Shown one piece after another: positions 5,440 through 21,125 of a stretch of DNA of 64,000 nucleotides. The translations under genes were made by a program, and so were the position numbers. The number at the start of each line of letters is the position of its first letter. Positions within the stretch are counted from its first letter, which is position 1. The notes under the pieces were generated by a model. It was not told where the DNA came from. It saw only the letters and a list, made by a program, of their open reading frames with translations, and made no database searches. The stretch is from Pseudothermotoga thermarum DSM 5069 (GTDB taxonomy: Bacteria > Thermotogota > Thermotogae > Thermotogales > DSM-5069), in NCBI RefSeq assembly GCF_000217815.1, contig NC_015707.1, forward strand, positions 248,001 to 312,000, written 5' to 3'.

Positions 5440-6309
5440 TCACTGATAGTGAACCTTCTTTTGACCATAGAAAAAGTAGATGACCGTAACGACGATCATA
5501 ACTAAAAACAAAATTACATTCTGAGCGCTTGCAGGACCAAGTTTTTGAAATCTAAATCCATCAAGATATAGCCTGTAGATCAAAGTCGTCGTATAATTCC
5601 CGGGACCACCTTTGGTCATAACATCAACTATTGCAAAAGATTGAAAAGTAGCCGAAATTATGTTCATTATCACAAGATAAAAAGTTATTGGCGAAACAAG
5701 TGGAAAGATTATTCTCCAAATTCTAATCCAACTGCTTGCACCATCGATTGTGCTCGCCTCCAAAACTTCACCAGGAAGGCTTTGCAAGGCTGCTAAATAG
5801 AAAATTACGTTGAATGGAAGTATCTTCCAAACGGAAGCAAATATCAACGAATAAGCAGCATACGGTCTTGTGATTAGCCAGTGAGTCTGTATACCAAAAA
5901 ATCTTAACATCAAATAGTTCACATGACCAACCACAGGGTTCAAAAGGAATCCCCACAAAGCCCCTGCTATGGCATATGAAATAGCATAAGGAGCGAATAT
6001 CATGGTTCTATAAATCCTTATTCCCGGTATTTTTTGATCCAAAAGTAAAGCAAGGAAAAAACCTAAGAACAGCGAAGCAGTAACAGTAACAAATGTATAA
6101 ATGAGAGAAAATGACACACTGTTCAAATAATCTGGATTTCTGAACAAATCCAAGTAATTTTTTAAACCAACAAATATCCTTCTATTACCAAAAACCGAAA
6201 TTCTATAGAAACTCGAATAAAACGCATCGTAAGCAGGATAATATATGAACAAAACTATTATCACAAAAGTTGGTAAAAGCAAAAGGTAAGGTGTAATATG
6301 CTTTCTCAT
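5440..6309 (-). CDS. Sugar ABC transporter permease, MalF/UgpA type
   Basis: Partner permease (289 aa) for the MalG-type gene downstream. It has a hydrophobic N-terminal helix (YLLLLPTFVIIVLFIYY) and the EAA loop VLEASTIDGASSWIRIW around residues 190-205. Start ATG 6309 (MRKHITPY) follows GGAGG with 8-base spacing; the ATG at 6324 overlaps that ribosome site and is less likely. The gene is intact, yet its upstream binding-protein gene has lost its 5' part, so the promoter that once drove all three genes has probably been removed. Expression may now depend on sequence in or beyond the IS fragment. Confidence 0.9.
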   Translation of the reverse strand: MRKHITPYLLLLPTFVIIVLFIYYPAYDAFYSSFYRISVFGNRRIFVGLKNYLDLFRNPDYLNSVSFSLIYTFVTVTASLFLGFFLALLLDQKIPGIRIYRTMIFAPYAISYAIAGALWGFLLNPVVGHVNYLMLRFFGIQTHWLITRPYAAYSLIFASVWKILPFNVIFYLAALQSLPGEVLEASTIDGASSWIRIWRIIFPLVSPITFYLVIMNIISATFQSFAIVDVMTKGGPGNYTTTLIYRLYLDGFRFQKLGPASAQNVILFLVMIVVTVIYFFYGQKKVHYQ

Positions 6310-6322
6310 CTTCCAAACCTCC

Positions 6323-6353
6323 AAAAAGCTGACCGGCGGAAAACCGGCCAGCT
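6323..6353 (-). terminator. Intercistronic hairpin with T-run, between binding protein and MalF-type gene
   Basis: Read on the minus strand, AGCTGGCCGG pairs with CCGGTCAGCT (one G-U pair) around a 7-base loop and is followed at once by TTTTT, which runs into the GGAGG site of the MalF-type permease. Leaky terminators in this position are typical of ABC operons, where they lower permease expression relative to the binding protein. The hairpin is seen directly; partial read-through is inference. Confidence 0.65.
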
Positions 6354-6363
6354 CTCGATTGTC

Positions 6364-6798
6364 TTAGAAGTATTCTTTTATAGCTTTGTTTGCGGCTTTT
6401 TCTGCTTCATCAAGTGCTTGTTTTGGTGTTAAGGTACCAGATATCATCTTTTCAATAGCGCTTTCTATAGCATCTCTAACTTCTGGGAAAGCCCCTATTA
6501 TGGCTCCCTGAGTGTTATAATTTTGCACGCTTGTTAGAAGTTGAAGCAAAGCAGTGAGATGATGCGGATTTTCAGCGTAATAACCACTTACTTGAAGCTT
6601 TTGAATGGCATCAACTCTGATTGGGTAATATCCAGTGGCTTGATGCCAAATTATCTGTGGCCCAGGTTCAGCAAGGTATTTTACCAACTTCCATGCAGCT
6701 TCTTCTTCAGCTTTATTTTTCTGTTTTAAAATCCATAAGCTCCCACCACCTACAACAACTCCTCCCCTTTGAACCCCATCTGGCAGAGGGAGAAAAGA
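6364..6798 (-). pseudogene. Sugar ABC solute-binding protein, C-terminal remnant
   Basis: About 145 codons in one frame resembling the C-terminal lobe of a family 1 extracellular solute-binding protein: PLPDGVQRGGVVVGGGSLW, then an AAWKLVKYLAEPG helix, PIRVDA, and a helical tail ending NKAIKEYF. Intact members have 400-450 residues, a signal peptide and a first lobe, all missing here. The coding frame stops making sense at 6797-6799, exactly where sequence shared with the IS at 17.6 kb begins. So the gene was cut by the IS or by a deletion ending at it. The two permeases downstream are intact. No start codon can be assigned. Confidence 0.85.
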
Positions 6799-6909
6799 GG
6801 CGTTTTAACATAAGCAGGTTATGGTACAAGAGGAGGGATGAGGACATAGTGAAGTGGCTATTTCCATTTCTTCTATTAGTGCAGTTTTCCTTCTTAAGTT
6901 GACAGGTCC
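6797..6909 (+). mobile_element. IS end fragment, inverted near-identical copy of 17594-17706
   Basis: These 113 bases match the reverse complement of 17594-17706 with one difference that I can find (C against T in the run ACTGYACTAA). The fragment carries the terminal sequence GGACCTGTCAACTTAAG (read on the minus strand at 6909-6893) and the last 35 or so codons of the transposase, in the plus direction, ending at 6902. At 6797 the similarity stops abruptly and binding-protein sequence begins. High identity of the two copies implies recent transposition or gene conversion. Confidence 0.8.
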
Positions 6910-7228
6910 TCCAATCTCTTGAACATAATTTTAACATACTCGTTTTAAATTGTCAATAAAGAATGCGTATGGCAGATGTGAAGGTACAAAGAGCATGCAG
7001 ATGGCGAAGAAGAGGATATGGGTGAAGATGATACTGTACAACTGGGTAAAGGTAATATTTTTGTTGTTGTTTATTAGGAGGGTATATTTTTGTCGAGGGT
7101 TATTTGAAACACTTTGATTGATGGGACAATAAGTGTATTCCTGATTTTTCGAACACACTCATAGATCGGACTTTAATGTAATAAGCATAACATACGCTAT
7201 GCAAGCAGTTGAACTGAAAAAACGGTAC
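6910..7228. other. Intergenic stretch, no gene recognised
   Basis: About 320 bases with no convincing coding frame on either strand; the longest minus-strand frame (about 75 codons) has no ribosome site or recognisable motif. The stretch is AT-rich with one GC-richer patch near 6970-7030. I see no hairpin, promoter or repeat that I would defend. It may be the remains of what lay upstream of the sugar ABC operon. Confidence 0.5.
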
Positions 7229-7420
7229 TCATTTTGAAGGTTTTTCTTTTTCGTCGGTTGATTCCTTCTGCTGGTAGTCCTCAATAGGTTCAACAGTTGC
7301 GCCACATTTTTCGCATATCAATTGGTCTCCAGAAAGCTTCGCTGCCGAGTAGTAAACCGCCCCACACTTTGGACATTTGTAGTAAATAAAAAACACCCCC
7401 ACAGTTTGACATTGTAACAC
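7229..7420 (-). CDS. Small zinc-ribbon protein
   Basis: A 55-63 aa protein with two Cys pairs, CPKCG near the start and CEKCG about 20 residues later, forming a zinc ribbon, followed by an acidic and lysine-rich tail (EDYQQKESTDEKEKPSK). The role is unknown; such proteins bind nucleic acid or act as partner subunits. The start is unclear. GTG 7420 has no good ribosome site; GTG 7396 begins the protein at VFFIYYKCPKC; and a GGGGGTG stretch precedes an ATT at 7387. It is transcribed away from the sulfur operon, with about 130 bases between the two gene starts. Confidence 0.65.
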   Translation of the reverse strand: MLQCQTVGVFFIYYKCPKCGAVYYSAAKLSGDQLICEKCGATVEPIEDYQQKESTDEKEKPSK

Positions 7421-7492
7421 CTTGATTTTCTAATATATTACCATACTCTTAAAAAATCATCAACAATCCCTATCAAGTCAAAATCTTTTTGG

Positions 7493-7526
7493 TATAATTT
7501 TAGCCAAGGAAATATTCCTATAGGAA
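7493..7526 (+). promoter_or_regulatory. Promoter -10 box and palindromic operator of the sulfur operon
   Basis: TATAAT lies at 7493-7498. Sixteen bases further, covering the expected early transcribed region, is the perfect 12-bp palindrome TTCCTATAGGAA (7515-7526) inside a wider AT-rich context (AATATT before, AAAAAGGATATT after). No good -35 hexamer is visible. A palindrome just downstream of -10, in front of an Rrf2-family gene, is the classical arrangement for autoregulation. Binding by the encoded regulator is inference. Confidence 0.65.
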
Positions 7527-7556
7527 AAAGGATATTTAGAAAGCGAGGGATTGGAT

Positions 7557-7988
7557 TTGAAAGTATCGACCACAAGTAGATATGGTTTGAGGGCTTTGAT
7601 AGATTTAGCTGCACATTCGCACAGCAGTTATGTCTCACTTGCAAGTATTGCAGAAAGACAGAAAATTTCACAGAAATATTTAGAGAGCATCTTCAAAATT
7701 CTTGCAAAAGCCGGAATAGTGAGGGCAGTTAAAGGAGCTTACGGTGGTTATAAGATCGTTGACGAGGCTTTGCAAATTTCTGTGAAGAAGATTCTTGAAA
7801 TACTTGAATCCAACTTGAAAGCACTATCCCCTCAATCAGATGATCATTTCGACAGATTTATCGAGGAATTTTTGTGGCAAAGATTGACTTTAAGAATTGA
7901 GAACCTGCTAGATTCCATAACTTTGAAAGATTTGGTAAGGGAATACACCGAAATTATGGAACCGAATTCTTTGATGTATTACATATGA
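7557..7988 (+). CDS. Rrf2-family transcriptional regulator lacking cluster cysteines
   Basis: A 143-aa winged-helix repressor. It starts KVSTTSRYGLRALIDLA, the standard Rrf2 N-terminus. The recognition region SQKYLESIFKILAKAGIV and the wing GAYGGYKI follow, then a C-terminal dimer helix. In the segment where IscR and NsrR carry three Fe-S cysteines (about residues 85-110) there is no Cys, so it resembles CymR-type regulators that sense sulfur status through a partner. TTG 7557 is taken as the start, spaced 5-6 bases from AGGGA; TTG 7551 is too close. It heads the metY-rrf2-cysK-metA operon, which supports a role in sulfur amino-acid control. CysK is the known CymR partner in Bacillus, and a cysK lies in this operon. 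Confidence 0.85.
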   Translation: MKVSTTSRYGLRALIDLAAHSHSSYVSLASIAERQKISQKYLESIFKILAKAGIVRAVKGAYGGYKIVDEALQISVKKILEILESNLKALSPQSDDHFDRFIEEFLWQRLTLRIENLLDSITLKDLVREYTEIMEPNSLMYYI

Positions 7989-9745
<1,757 letters not shown>

Positions 9746-9761
9746 CAAAGGAGGGAAGTAT

Positions 9762-10691
9762 ATGAAAATAGCCAAAAATCTCGCAGAATTGATAGGAAAT
9801 ACGCCTTTGGTTGAACTCGGCAACTACAGCAAGGTAAAGGGAATAAAAGCAAGGCTTGTTGCAAAGTTAGAGTATTTTAATCCTGGTGGTAGCGTCAAAG
9901 ATAGAATAGGCCTTTCCATGATAGAAGATGCCGAAAGAAGAGGTATTCTCAAACCAGGTGCAACAATAATTGAACCCACCAGCGGTAATACAGGAATCGC
10001 TCTTGCGATGGTTGCAGCGATCAAAGGGTACCGCTTGATTTTGACAATGCCAGAAACGATGAGTGTGGAAAGAAGGAAACTTTTAAAAGCCTTAGGTGCT
10101 GAAATAGTTCTTACACCGGGCTCCGAAGGAATGAGAGGGGCAGTGAAAAAAGCAGAAGAACTTGCAACACAGATTCCAAATTCCTTTATGCCACAGCAAT
10201 TCAAAAATCCCGCCAATCCGGAAATTCACAGAAGAACAACAGCTGAAGAGATATGGAGAGATACCGATGGACAGGTTGACATCTTCGTCGCAGGTGTTGG
10301 TACCGGCGGAACGATAACGGGGGTTGGAGAAGTTCTCAAACAGCGCAAGCCTGATGTCAAAATTGTCGCCGTAGAACCTTACGATTCGCCTGTTCTTTCC
10401 GGTGGTCAACCTGGTCCGCACAAAATTCAGGGCATCGGAGCAGGTTTCATACCAGATGTGTTGAATTTAAAAGTAATAGATGAAATCATCAAAGTGAAGG
10501 CCGAGGAAGCTTTTGAAACCTCTCGCTTGCTTGCAAAAACTGAAGGGCTGATAGTTGGAATATCCTCTGGTGCAGCTGCCTTTGCAGCAACCCAAGTGGC
10601 ACTTAGACCCGAAAACGAAGGAAAAATGATCGTGGTGATTTTGCCCGACACCGGTGAGAGATACCTTTCGACAGATTTGTACGAAGTTTAA
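9762..10691 (+). CDS. cysK: Cysteine synthase A (O-acetylserine sulfhydrylase)
   Basis: Fold type II PLP enzyme (309 aa) forming cysteine from O-acetylserine and sulfide. Visible: the PLP lysine K46 in NPGGSVKDR, the substrate loop [10 protein letters not shown], the phosphate-binding GTGGTITG, and the C-terminal [12 protein letters not shown] that is typical of CysK. ATG 9762 follows AAAGGAGGG with a normal spacing; the longer frame from 9699 only overlaps the regulator upstream. It lies 16 bases after the second rrf2 gene. No serine acetyltransferase gene is in the operon. In Bacillus CysK also serves as co-regulator of CymR, which fits the upstream Cys-free Rrf2 gene, but this is inference. 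Confidence 0.95.
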
Positions 10692-10704
10692 GGAGAGGTG
10701 AGTT

Positions 10705-11607
10705 ATGCCTGTTGTTGTCCCAGCCGATCTTTCCTCTGGAAAAGTTGTCAAGTCAGAGGGTATACCAGTTTTTTCCTATGGTGAAATAAGCGAAAAAGAT
10801 GGACCGTTTGTAAAAATCGGGATATTGAACTTAATGCCAAATAAAGAGGAAACAGAAGCCCAATTTTTGAGGGTTTTGGGCAATACACCTATAATCTGTC
10901 ATGTGACTTTCTTGTATACCAAAACACGCATCCCGCAACATACACCTTTTGAACACTTAAAAAAATTCTACAAAACTTTCGACGAAGTGAAAGGCGAATT
11001 TTTCGATGGTTTTATAATAACTGGTGCTCCCGTAGAGCATTTACCCTTTGAGGAAGTTGATTACTGGGAAGAATTAACACAAATAATGGATTGGTGTGAA
11101 ACGAATGTTGGAACCACCTATTACGTTTGTTGGGCACCCCAGGCTGCGCTTTACCACCGTTACGGGGTACAGAAATACATGCTCAAGAAAAAGATGTTCG
11201 GAGTGTTCAAACATACCATCAAAAATAAAAACGAATATCTCTTCAAGGGGTTTGACGACGTATTTTATGCCCCACACTCGAGACACACCGAGATCAGAAA
11301 AGAAGATCTGTTGAAAATACCTGAGATAGAGATTCTGTCAGAATCCGATGAAGCTGGCATTTACATAGCCGCAACAAAGGACAGAAGACACATCTTTGTG
11401 ACAGGTCATCCCGAATACGATCCTTTGACTTTAAAGCGAGAATACGAAAGGGACAAAGCCAGAGGAATGGATATAGACATACCGAAAAATTATTTTCCAA
11501 ACGACGATCCAAAACTTGAACCAATAGTAAACTGGAGATGCCATGGACATTTGTTGTTTGCAAACTGGTTGAATTATTATGTTTATCAAAAAAAGTTTGT
11601 AAAGTGA
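10705..11607 (+). CDS. metA: Homoserine O-acetyltransferase (MetA/MetAA)
   Basis: A 300-aa glutamine-amidotransferase-fold acyltransferase that activates homoserine for methionine synthesis. Catalytic residues sit at the family positions: C142 in YYVCWAPQAAL, and H235 and E237 in TGHPEYD. The acyl-specificity position 111, in TGAPVEHL, is Glu, which in characterised MetA enzymes means acetyl-CoA rather than succinyl-CoA use (Gly in E. coli). So the product is O-acetylhomoserine, the substrate of MetY upstream. ATG 10705 is preceded by GGAGAGG. It is the last gene of the operon, 13 bases after cysK. Confidence 0.95.
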   Translation: MPVVVPADLSSGKVVKSEGIPVFSYGEISEKDGPFVKIGILNLMPNKEETEAQFLRVLGNTPIICHVTFLYTKTRIPQHTPFEHLKKFYKTFDEVKGEFFDGFIITGAPVEHLPFEEVDYWEELTQIMDWCETNVGTTYYVCWAPQAALYHRYGVQKYMLKKKMFGVFKHTIKNKNEYLFKGFDDVFYAPHSRHTEIRKEDLLKIPEIEILSESDEAGIYIAATKDRRHIFVTGHPEYDPLTLKREYERDKARGMDIDIPKNYFPNDDPKLEPIVNWRCHGHLLFANWLNYYVYQKKFVK

Positions 11608-11620
11608 GATCTTGGATTTT

Positions 11621-11650
11621 TTCACAATAATTTGTCAAATGTTCTATAAT
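11621..11650 (+). promoter_or_regulatory. Promoter of the DAACS symporter gene
   Basis: TTCACA (11621-11626) and TATAAT (11645-11650) are separated by 18 bases, five of six and six of six matches to the sigma-70 consensus. The TTG start of the symporter is 35 bases downstream. Seen in sequence; activity not tested. Confidence 0.65.
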
Positions 11651-11684
11651 CTATTTGTGATTCCTTAACTGGGGGGTGGAGCAG

Positions 11685-12959
11685 TTGGCAAAAGGCAAAG
11701 GCAGAATCTTTGGCTGGTACTTTGGTACAAACGTCCTTGTGAGGATTCTCATCGGCTTGATCCTTGGAGCGATTGTTGGGCTGATAGTTGGACCGAAGAT
11801 TCAGGTTATCTCTCCCTTAGGTGATTTGTTCATCAGATTACTCAGGATGATAGTTGTACCAGTCATATTTTTCTCGTTGGTAGCGGGCGCAGCAAGTATA
11901 AGACCTTCCAAACTTGGTAAAGTTGGAGTCAAGATAATGGTTTACTACCTTATAACAACCGTTCTTGCTGTCTCAATAGGTTTGATCATGGCGAATATCT
12001 TCAAGCCAGGTCTTGGTATAACACTGCCGGGCGAAGCTCCTGGAAGACAATTGACACAACCTTCTTTAATTCAAACACTTTTGAATATTGTACCAACCAA
12101 CCCTGTTGATTCCCTTGCAAAAGGAGATGTTTTGCCTATAATCTTCTTTGCACTTGTGTTCGGGATATCACTCTCGTACTTGAGGGACAGCAAAGAGGAA
12201 CGACTCAGCGAAGGTGCAACGTTAATTTTCAAATTCTGCGATGCAGCAGCTGAAACGATGTACAAAATAGTCCGGGGTATTTTAGAGTATGCACCGATCG
12301 GTGTTTTTGCTTTGATAGCCGTTGTGTTTGGAAACCAAGGCGCCAAAGCTTTCGGACCGCTTGGCATGGTGACTTTGACGGTTTACATTACCCTCGCAGT
12401 GCATTTGTTTGTGGTTTATGGAATTGCTTTGAGAATTTTTGGCTTGTCTTTCACTAGGTTTCTCAAAGGTGCAAAAGAAGCTATGTTAACTGCTTTTGTG
12501 ACAAGAAGTTCAAGTGGTACCCTACCTATTACCTTGAAGAACGCCGATGAACTTGGTATACCAAGGGGAATTTCTTCTTTCACATTACCTCTTGGTGCAA
12601 CAATAAACATGGATGGAACAGTTATCTATCAAGGAGTTTGTACGTTGTTCATAGCCTTTGCAGTTGGTGCAAATTTGACTTTTACACAACAATTGACCGT
12701 TATAATCACGGCTACTCTTGCTTCAATAGGCACAGCTGGTGTACCTGGTGCTGGAGCGATAATGTTGCTTATGGTTCTAAACTCTGTTGGCTTCAAAGTT
12801 GATCCTGGAACAAGAGTTGCAGCAGCTTACGCGATGATCCTTGGAATTGATGCTTTACTTGACATGGGAAGAACTTGTTTAAATGTTACTGGAGATTTGG
12901 TTGGTACCTCAATTGTAGCAAAAACAGAAGGTGAACTTGATCTATCAAAGTGGAAATGA
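11685..12959 (+). CDS. Dicarboxylate/amino acid:cation symporter (DAACS family, GltP-like)
   Basis: A 424-aa membrane carrier of the GltPh/GltP family, taking up glutamate, aspartate or C4-dicarboxylates with Na+ or H+. Family signatures are present: the serine-rich hairpin [10 protein letters not shown] near residue 275, [11 protein letters not shown] in helix 7, GVPGAGAI in hairpin 2, and [11 protein letters not shown] in helix 8, whose Asp and Arg/Thr residues contact substrate. The MDGT form and thermophile context fit Na+ coupling, by inference. TTG 11685 follows GGGGGGTGG; GTG 11676 lies inside that site. The gene has its own promoter and a terminator. Confidence 0.92.
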
Positions 12960-20708: not shown

Positions 20709-21125
20709 TTGGGCATAACGGTTAAAAGCGAGTACGCACTTAGAATAATGATGCACCTTGCAGGTTGCGGGCAGAATAATCCAGTTTCACTAACAAACAT
20801 TTTAAAGGAAGCAAAGGTGCCGAAGGAATTTGCTGAAAAAATAGTATCAGATCTTAGGCGCGCAAATTTGATTGTTTCGGCTCGTGGAAGAAAAGGTGGT
20901 TACCAGTTGACAAAACCAGCAAATGAAATGAGTGTTTTTGAAATAATGGCGGCTGTTGATGAACCACAGAAAATAATCAAGTGCAACTTTGATGAGGAAT
21001 GCTGCTCAGATCCAGAAAGTTGCGCAATAAGAAATCTAGTTTGGAGAAGACTTTGGAACAATATCATTTCGACGTTAAAATCGATCACACTTCAAGAACT
21101 CGTTGACAATTGTCATAAGGAGTGA
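20709..21125 (+). CDS. Rrf2-family regulator with cysteine cluster
   Basis: A 138-aa Rrf2 winged-helix protein: GITVKSEYALRIMMHLAG, then AEKIVSDLRRANLIVSARG, wing GRKGGYQL. The cluster region is CNFDEECCSDPESC, giving C-X5-CC-X5-C, so three cysteines in NsrR/IscR-like spacing are available for an iron-sulfur cluster. TTG 20709 lies 8 bases after GGAGGTG. It overlaps nothing, sits 21 bases after the lipoprotein gene, and precedes the GAF/sulfoxide-reductase-like gene by 4 bases. Control of that gene in response to oxidative or nitrosative stress is plausible but inferred from proximity. Confidence 0.85.
   Translation: MGITVKSEYALRIMMHLAGCGQNNPVSLTNILKEAKVPKEFAEKIVSDLRRANLIVSARGRKGGYQLTKPANEMSVFEIMAAVDEPQKIIKCNFDEECCSDPESCAIRNLVWRRLWNNIISTLKSITLQELVDNCHKE

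Follow-up and report, generated by a model that had tools for sequence, protein, structure and literature searches.

Rrf2A, the product of the first gene of a sulfur operon in the window (the whole stretch of 64,000 nucleotides that was analyzed), is proposed here to be a cluster-less, CysK-assisted, autoregulating repressor that resembles CymR and uses a divergent putative operator at positions 7501–7527; the probability of this reading is put at about 0.5. Rrf2A would repress its own operon, rrf2A-metY-rrf2B-cysK-metA, working like CymR, and probably gauges the cysteine of the cell through CysK. The DNA covered by the repressor is most likely the 27-bp stretch 7501–7527, to which the perfect palindrome TTCCTATAGGAA would supply the right half-site only, without itself being a symmetric operator. 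When O-acetylserine builds up, it would displace the C-terminal tail of Rrf2A, the repressor would leave the DNA, and the synthesis of homocysteine and cysteine would be switched on. Binding at this promoter, CysK as the partner, and O-acetylserine as the signal are what we infer from the evidence below.

The operon and the family placement of Rrf2A

The five genes lie close-packed on the forward strand in the order rrf2A, metY, rrf2B, cysK, and metA. The sequence-only reading had placed an Rrf2 regulator without Fe–S cysteines ahead of metY, cysK, and metA, and the open reading frames (ORFs) and the Pfam/NCBIfam models confirm this arrangement. rrf2A (7557–7988) has a TTG start and encodes a cluster-less Rrf2 repressor of 143 amino acids, assigned by PF02082, the tree, and AlphaFold2/Foldseek. 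metY (8004–9296) encodes O-acetylhomoserine sulfhydrylase (homocysteine synthase; NF006096, 743 bits, cut-off 726), and its stop codon is overlapped by the start codon of rrf2B (9293–9745), which encodes a three-Cys Rrf2 protein (C-x8-C-x5-C, Fe–S type by sequence). The last two genes are cysK (9762–10691), for O-acetylserine sulfhydrylase (TIGR01139, 484.5 bits, cut-off 351), and metA (10705–11607), for a homoserine O-acyltransferase (PF04204, 410 bits) that scores 421 bits with the MetA_acetyl model, under its cut-off of 460.5. Because a promoter-like pair at 11621–11650 precedes the next gene, which encodes a sodium:dicarboxylate family symporter, metA probably closes the operon.

Rrf2A passes the cut-offs of the Rrf2 superfamily models TIGR00738 (113.6 bits, cut-off 73.3) and PF02082 (101.4 bits, cut-off 30). 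It contains no cysteine at all, and hence lacks the Fe–S triad expected of IscR, as CymR does. Both Rrf2A (101.1 bits) and Rrf2B (98.9 bits) score below the cut-off of the IscR model (207.6 bits), and Rrf2A reaches 110.9 bits with the CymR equivalog model NF047409, whose cut-off is 195. The AlphaFold2 model of Rrf2A (mean pLDDT 81.7) was matched by Foldseek to Thermincola potens IscR and to CymR of Bacillus subtilis and Staphylococcus aureus, which share the Rrf2 fold (TM 0.71–0.85 to Protein Data Bank [PDB] IDs 2Y75 and 3T8R/3T8T). T. potens IscR (PDB ID: 4CIC) is the best match in both sequence and fold (101.7 bits, 40% identity) and has the same MYYI end. It is of the IscR type, however, and its nearest iscS-linked neighbors within the sample described below (e.g., L247) retain three cysteines and are placed, unlike Rrf2A, on the other main branch.

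The phylogenetic sample of 166 Rrf2 proteins drew on the phylum of the window, on Bacillota, and on a single Treponema locus; 165 of the proteins were placed in a fast tree and 52 chosen ones in a careful tree with a midpoint root. The sample was gathered by likeness to Rrf2A and is therefore enriched in the clade of Rrf2A. Rrf2A falls in a 15-member group with a support of 94 in the fast tree and 99/93 in the careful tree. None of the 15 members has the three-Cys motif, 14 end in Ile, and 14 are encoded within 1.6 kb of cysK, metY, or metA. The Bacillales CymR rows (L248–L250, the last with 206 bits to 2Y75) group by themselves (100/100) within the IscR-like branch, apart from this clade. Judged by this separation and by the score under the NF047409 cut-off, Rrf2A is not a CymR ortholog, and the midpoint-rooted tree has cluster-less sulfur regulators at two separate positions. 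The genomic settings differ as well; metY, cysK, and metA are operon partners of rrf2A, but of the three CymR-like loci fetched, two (L248 and L249) adjoin iscS. Thus, the description as CymR-like in the sequence-only reading holds for a member of a cluster-less clade encoded near cysteine-metabolism genes (cysK, metY, metA) and bearing an aromatic-x-Ile tail, but not in the sense of orthology.

The same association is seen more widely. Outside the window's phylum, the triad is missing from 14 of 31 Rrf2 proteins linked to cys/met genes and from 2 of 72 linked to iscS (Fisher test, 3e-7), in a comparison that ignores relatedness and counts rows with both kinds of neighbor as cys/met. Within the clade, the gene order is metA-rrf2-metY in two genomes (G139 and G298), rrf2-metY with cysK further on in G473 and G431, rrf2-metY-cysK in G386, and cysK-rrf2-metY in G392. 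G139 also has a short second rrf2A-like ORF (L305:6021-6290, 89 aa, 54% to Rrf2A) on a contig that carries cysK (L305:1908). By description only, these loci can be likened to CAC2236-CAC2235 of Clostridium acetobutylicum, a proposed CymR beside cysK with a predicted CymR-like site, in the available part of PMC3828012. A literature search, with subscription journals mostly outside it, found no description of the Rrf2A clade or of CysK docking of IscR.

The origin of the operon was approached through metY. The window's metY is 73–75% identical to the metY of the Bacillota rrf2-metY loci and 66–69% identical to that of family f3 in the same phylum, and it groups with f3 (support 94) in a quick metY tree. 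As to a possible lateral origin of the operon, the identities thus favor the Bacillota loci and the tree favors f3. The ten other genomes of the window's family contain no close metY (best, 40% identity), and the plasmid collection gave no match. The f3 loci were considered as a source of orthologous promoters from the same phylum and were set aside; the eight metY loci have no Rrf2 gene in the 10–11 kb fetched. In all eight, metA adjoins metY, and the six promoters printed (L099–L101 and L104–L106) have a different promoter element in common, the block AGTAAGG(T/C)A(A/G)TACTAAAT around the −10 region. No Rrf2 gene adjoins this block, which may serve some other regulator as its operator.

The C-terminal tail as a candidate CysK-docking peptide

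The last six sense codons of rrf2A (7968–7985, forward strand) encode SLMYYI, which is identified by alignment as a candidate CysK-docking peptide. Residues 137–143 are the sole segment of the AlphaFold2 model with a pLDDT below 50 and are disordered in that model. The end of Rrf2A is an aromatic-x-Ile C terminus of the S. aureus CymR type (..LMYYI versus ..YMFYI), and similar ends are found in Rrf2B (SYIYHI) and T. potens IscR (YMYYI). In the available parts of PMC12895370 and PMC4961446, CymR is counted with the proteins that partner CysK and have Ile at the C terminus, where in CysE this residue contributes some 80% of the energy of binding; the contact of the CymR Ile with CysK is a docking proposed there in parallel with the other partners. 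The CysK encoded in the operon has the TSGNT and QQF motifs, which match the peptide-binding residues named in the available part of PMC12895370. The CysE of the genome ends in ..PPIPRF and, without a terminal Ile, lacks the residue for the usual CysE–CysK complex. B. subtilis is also referred to, in the same part of PMC12895370, as being without a working CysE–CysK complex.

In the window's own phylum, with its own proteins included, the aromatic-x-Ile tail is present on three of the four cys/met-linked Rrf2 proteins and on none of the 46 others (p = 2e-4), with neighbors counted over flanks of some 1.5 kb in most cases. The remaining cys/met-linked protein, encoded beside cysK in G048, ends in ..RARI. 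A locus of family f3 (L107:4859-6443, G039) encodes an Rrf2 protein with the tail ..IIYNI, followed by a small ORF that reads as ThiS-like from its sequence and by cysK. In Bacillota (L141–L230 and L242–L304), the tail is found on 51 of 70 three-Cys, iscS-linked Rrf2 proteins. By this sequence comparison, it is therefore a marker of the wider CymR/IscR group and is not special to cysK-linked Rrf2 proteins in Bacillota. The tail on IscR-type, iscS-linked proteins might explain the response of such operons to the cysteine supply.

The promoter of rrf2A and its candidate operator

Upstream of rrf2A, an extended −10 element (7490–7498, forward strand) consists of TGG at 7490–7492 and TATAAT at 7493–7498; a simple two-hexamer promoter scan found no TTGACA-like −35 element with it. 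The perfect 12-bp palindrome TTCCTATAGGAA (7515–7526, assigned to no strand) is present 16 bases downstream of TATAAT, just as the sequence-only reading had reported. The exact 12-mer occurs once in the whole 2.04-Mb genome, and allowing 0–1 mismatch gave 7 sites versus 15 for the reversed control pattern. Five of the six one-mismatch sites lie within ORFs, which encode by Pfam DNA polymerase III alpha, sigma-54, a YitT membrane protein, MotB, and an HD-domain protein. The sixth (L003) lies at the start of the ORF of an Rce1-like protein, where its GGAG could act as a ribosome-binding site. No sulfur gene is among the six, and so the genome count, by which the sequence-only reading had hoped to trace the regulator to other sulfur genes, gives no regulon. 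The window contains 15 perfect palindromes of at least 12 bp, compared with a mean of 20.6 (range 12–28) in 30 dinucleotide shuffles. Such palindromes are thus not enriched, and TTCCTATAGGAA alone is not above chance; the probability of at least one in dinucleotide shuffles is 0.05 for 7493–7556 and 0.09 for 7431–7556. A riboswitch or other RNA element was also considered and rejected, with no Rfam match at E ≤ 1 in 6300–12000 and none at gathering score in L243, L242, L102, and L107. The fold of the 5′ UTR of the operon is ordinary (z = −1.06).

An operator model was derived from the regions upstream of 52 Rrf2 genes of Bacillota, a dereplicated set coding for proteins with the C-terminal pattern of an aromatic residue or His, any residue, and Ile or Leu. 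The resulting 23-bp palindrome, AT-n-CC-n-AGTAA-n-TTACT-n-GG-n-AT (CC-N13-GG), exceeds 10 bits in 37 of these 52 promoters (in-sample). Ahead of the Bacillales CymR genes, it exceeds 10 bits in one of three cases (L218, 11.4; L189, 3.5; L201, −7.2 bits), and the model mainly represents promoters of the IscR type; its link to CymR's own motif comes from the available part of PMC3828012. The model was re-trained on the 48 of these promoters outside the clade, starting from an earlier matrix that had included four clade members, and sites were counted at p ≤ 0.05 in 21 upstream regions picked by hand from 12 members of the clade, of which G473 and G431 are near relatives. Sites were found in 14 of the 21 promoters and in three of the four promoters of L038 and L040, members first left out, making 17 of 25 overall. 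Examples are AAACCTATAAAAACTATAGGAAT before cysK of G465 and AAGCCAAGCAAAACAATGCGATT before metA of G139. A clade-specific, non-palindromic model was overfitted and was dropped for the re-trained one. Directly before rrf2 itself, several relatives have no significant site (G473, p = 0.31; G386, 0.11; G139, 0.81; the L289 copy in G392, 0.35), and in these four genomes the operator sites stand before cysK, metY, or metA.

The 23-bp operator of the Bacillota CymR/IscR-type proteins is not found in the window promoter, where the model scores −0.4 at best (p = 0.45). The palindrome, which the sequence-only reading took as the expected geometry for a CymR-like repressor, is CC-N4-GG, whereas the operators of IscR-type proteins from Bacillota and of Rrf2A's own clade are CC-N13-GG. 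The presumed recognition helix of Rrf2A itself differs from most of the clade, with YLES in place of the YLEQ of 11 of the 14 other members and with LAKA, in which all 14 have Arg or Lys for the second Ala, and an altered operator is therefore possible. A left half-site of the AT-n-CC-n-A-G type, TAGCCAAGGA (7501–7510, forward strand, half-site score 5.0), is common to the metA promoter of the distant metA-rrf2-metY locus in G139. The window sequence after TATAAT, TTTAGCCAAGGAAAT, is identical at 12 of 15 positions to that of the G139 promoter, TTAAGCCAAGCAAAA, a match reached by 13 of 200,000 random window 15-mers, for a promoter picked from about 20 looked at. This common stretch forms the left half of the operator match found in the G139 promoter itself. 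On the right, the palindrome letters CTATAGGAA (7518–7526) are identical to the right half of the operator before cysK in G465 (..CTATAGGAAT), and the palindrome arms TTCC/GGAA are the half-site letters of the clade operators. The CCAAG half-site and the right arm of the palindrome make up the candidate Rrf2A operator TAGCCAAGGAAATATTCCTATAGGAAA (7501–7527, forward strand), which overlaps the transcript start and has a spacer 4 bp longer than the canonical one. It is the best half-site pair of 7493–7556; among 3000 window 64-mers matched for composition, 6.8% attain its score of 7.6 when all spacings are allowed (p = 0.07), and its standing as the best candidate is suggestive only. This rrf2A promoter was found in one genome only, so no close footprint is possible.

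Genome-wide, the 23-bp pattern at 0–1 mismatch has 63 matches versus 56 for the control, and its two exact matches are inside ORFs. The pattern CCAAG-N5..14-TAGGAA has 6 matches, the own promoter included, versus 8 and 10 for the control pattern on its two strands; the other five are all inside ORFs. No regulon is visible from the palindrome, the 23-bp pattern, or CCAAG-N5..14-TAGGAA, and none would be required if the autoregulator acted only locally.

A reading in which the palindrome is a product of chance and Rrf2A does not control this promoter, either because it acts at other genes or because its operator here has decayed, is rather unlikely. The shuffle probabilities of 0.05–0.09 and a promoter without the canonical site would fit such a history, as would the relatives with no significant site directly before rrf2 and with sites before cysK, metY, or metA. 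However, the left half-site common to G139 and the position of rrf2A as the first gene of the operon argue for control of this promoter, and no better site elsewhere is visible from the genome counts and the two exact matches above. The palindrome itself as the symmetric operator of Rrf2A is improbable. It stands 16 bp after the −10 element, where a repressor would block transcription, its arms carry the half-site letters of the clade, it is unique in the genome, and the divergent recognition helix would permit an altered site; nevertheless, its spacing is not that of the clade, palindromes of 12 bp occur no more often than expected by chance, and the NsrR–operator complex (PDB ID: 7b0c), a fold match, also uses a 23-bp fragment. 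Least likely is that Rrf2B binds the promoter, instead of or together with Rrf2A, and that the operon answers to the iron–sulfur/redox state, as its three cysteines, Ile tail, co-encoding, and the recurrence of cluster-less and three-Cys Rrf2 pairs in L301, L038, and L040 might suggest, because the protein has a long branch in the tree and its presumed recognition helix YLQR departs from those of proteins with known sites here, so that a site for Rrf2B cannot be predicted. The preferred reading is autoregulation by Rrf2A through 7501–7527, and the sequence-only reading was largely right in its regulatory idea but not in the geometry it stated: it had the right system and the wrong mark.

Paired Rrf2 proteins and the reach of CysK-assisted repression

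A cluster-less Rrf2 protein is paired with a three-Cys one at four loci (the window, 7557–9745; L301:5776-6647; L038:5432-6441; L040:3910-4927), three of them near cysK. In L301 and L038, the two genes are side by side near cysK, and L040 has the same divergent pair, without cysK in the listed neighborhood. In L288, one gene of each kind is found about 2.6 kb apart. The docking-type tail is present on both proteins in the window, on neither in L301, and on the cluster-less one only in L038, L040, and L288. A third Rrf2 protein of the window (20709–21125) has the three-Cys motif, no Ile tail, and no sulfur genes among the surrounding listed ORFs; a close relative occurs in a similar setting in L118, from the same family.

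A bolder but unlikely extension is a twin sensor, in which the cluster-less and the three-Cys Rrf2 would share the CysK of the operon via their docking tails, and a single cysteine signal would reach both a plain repressor and an iron–sulfur/redox sensor. Since most of the iscS-linked IscR-type proteins seen in Bacillota carry this tail too, docking to CysK may generally connect the genes for Fe–S clusters with the cysteine pool. The Rrf2/iscS operon cpe1786 of Clostridium perfringens is reported to respond to cysteine limitation, the cause being left for further work in the available part of PMC2940859, and the tail on IscR-type proteins bears on this response. If the mechanism proposed for Rrf2A is true, CysK-assisted repression is not confined to the CymR of Bacillales: another lineage of cluster-less Rrf2 proteins, with a separate place in the tree and ties to metY and metA, would use it as well, and it would operate in another phylum.
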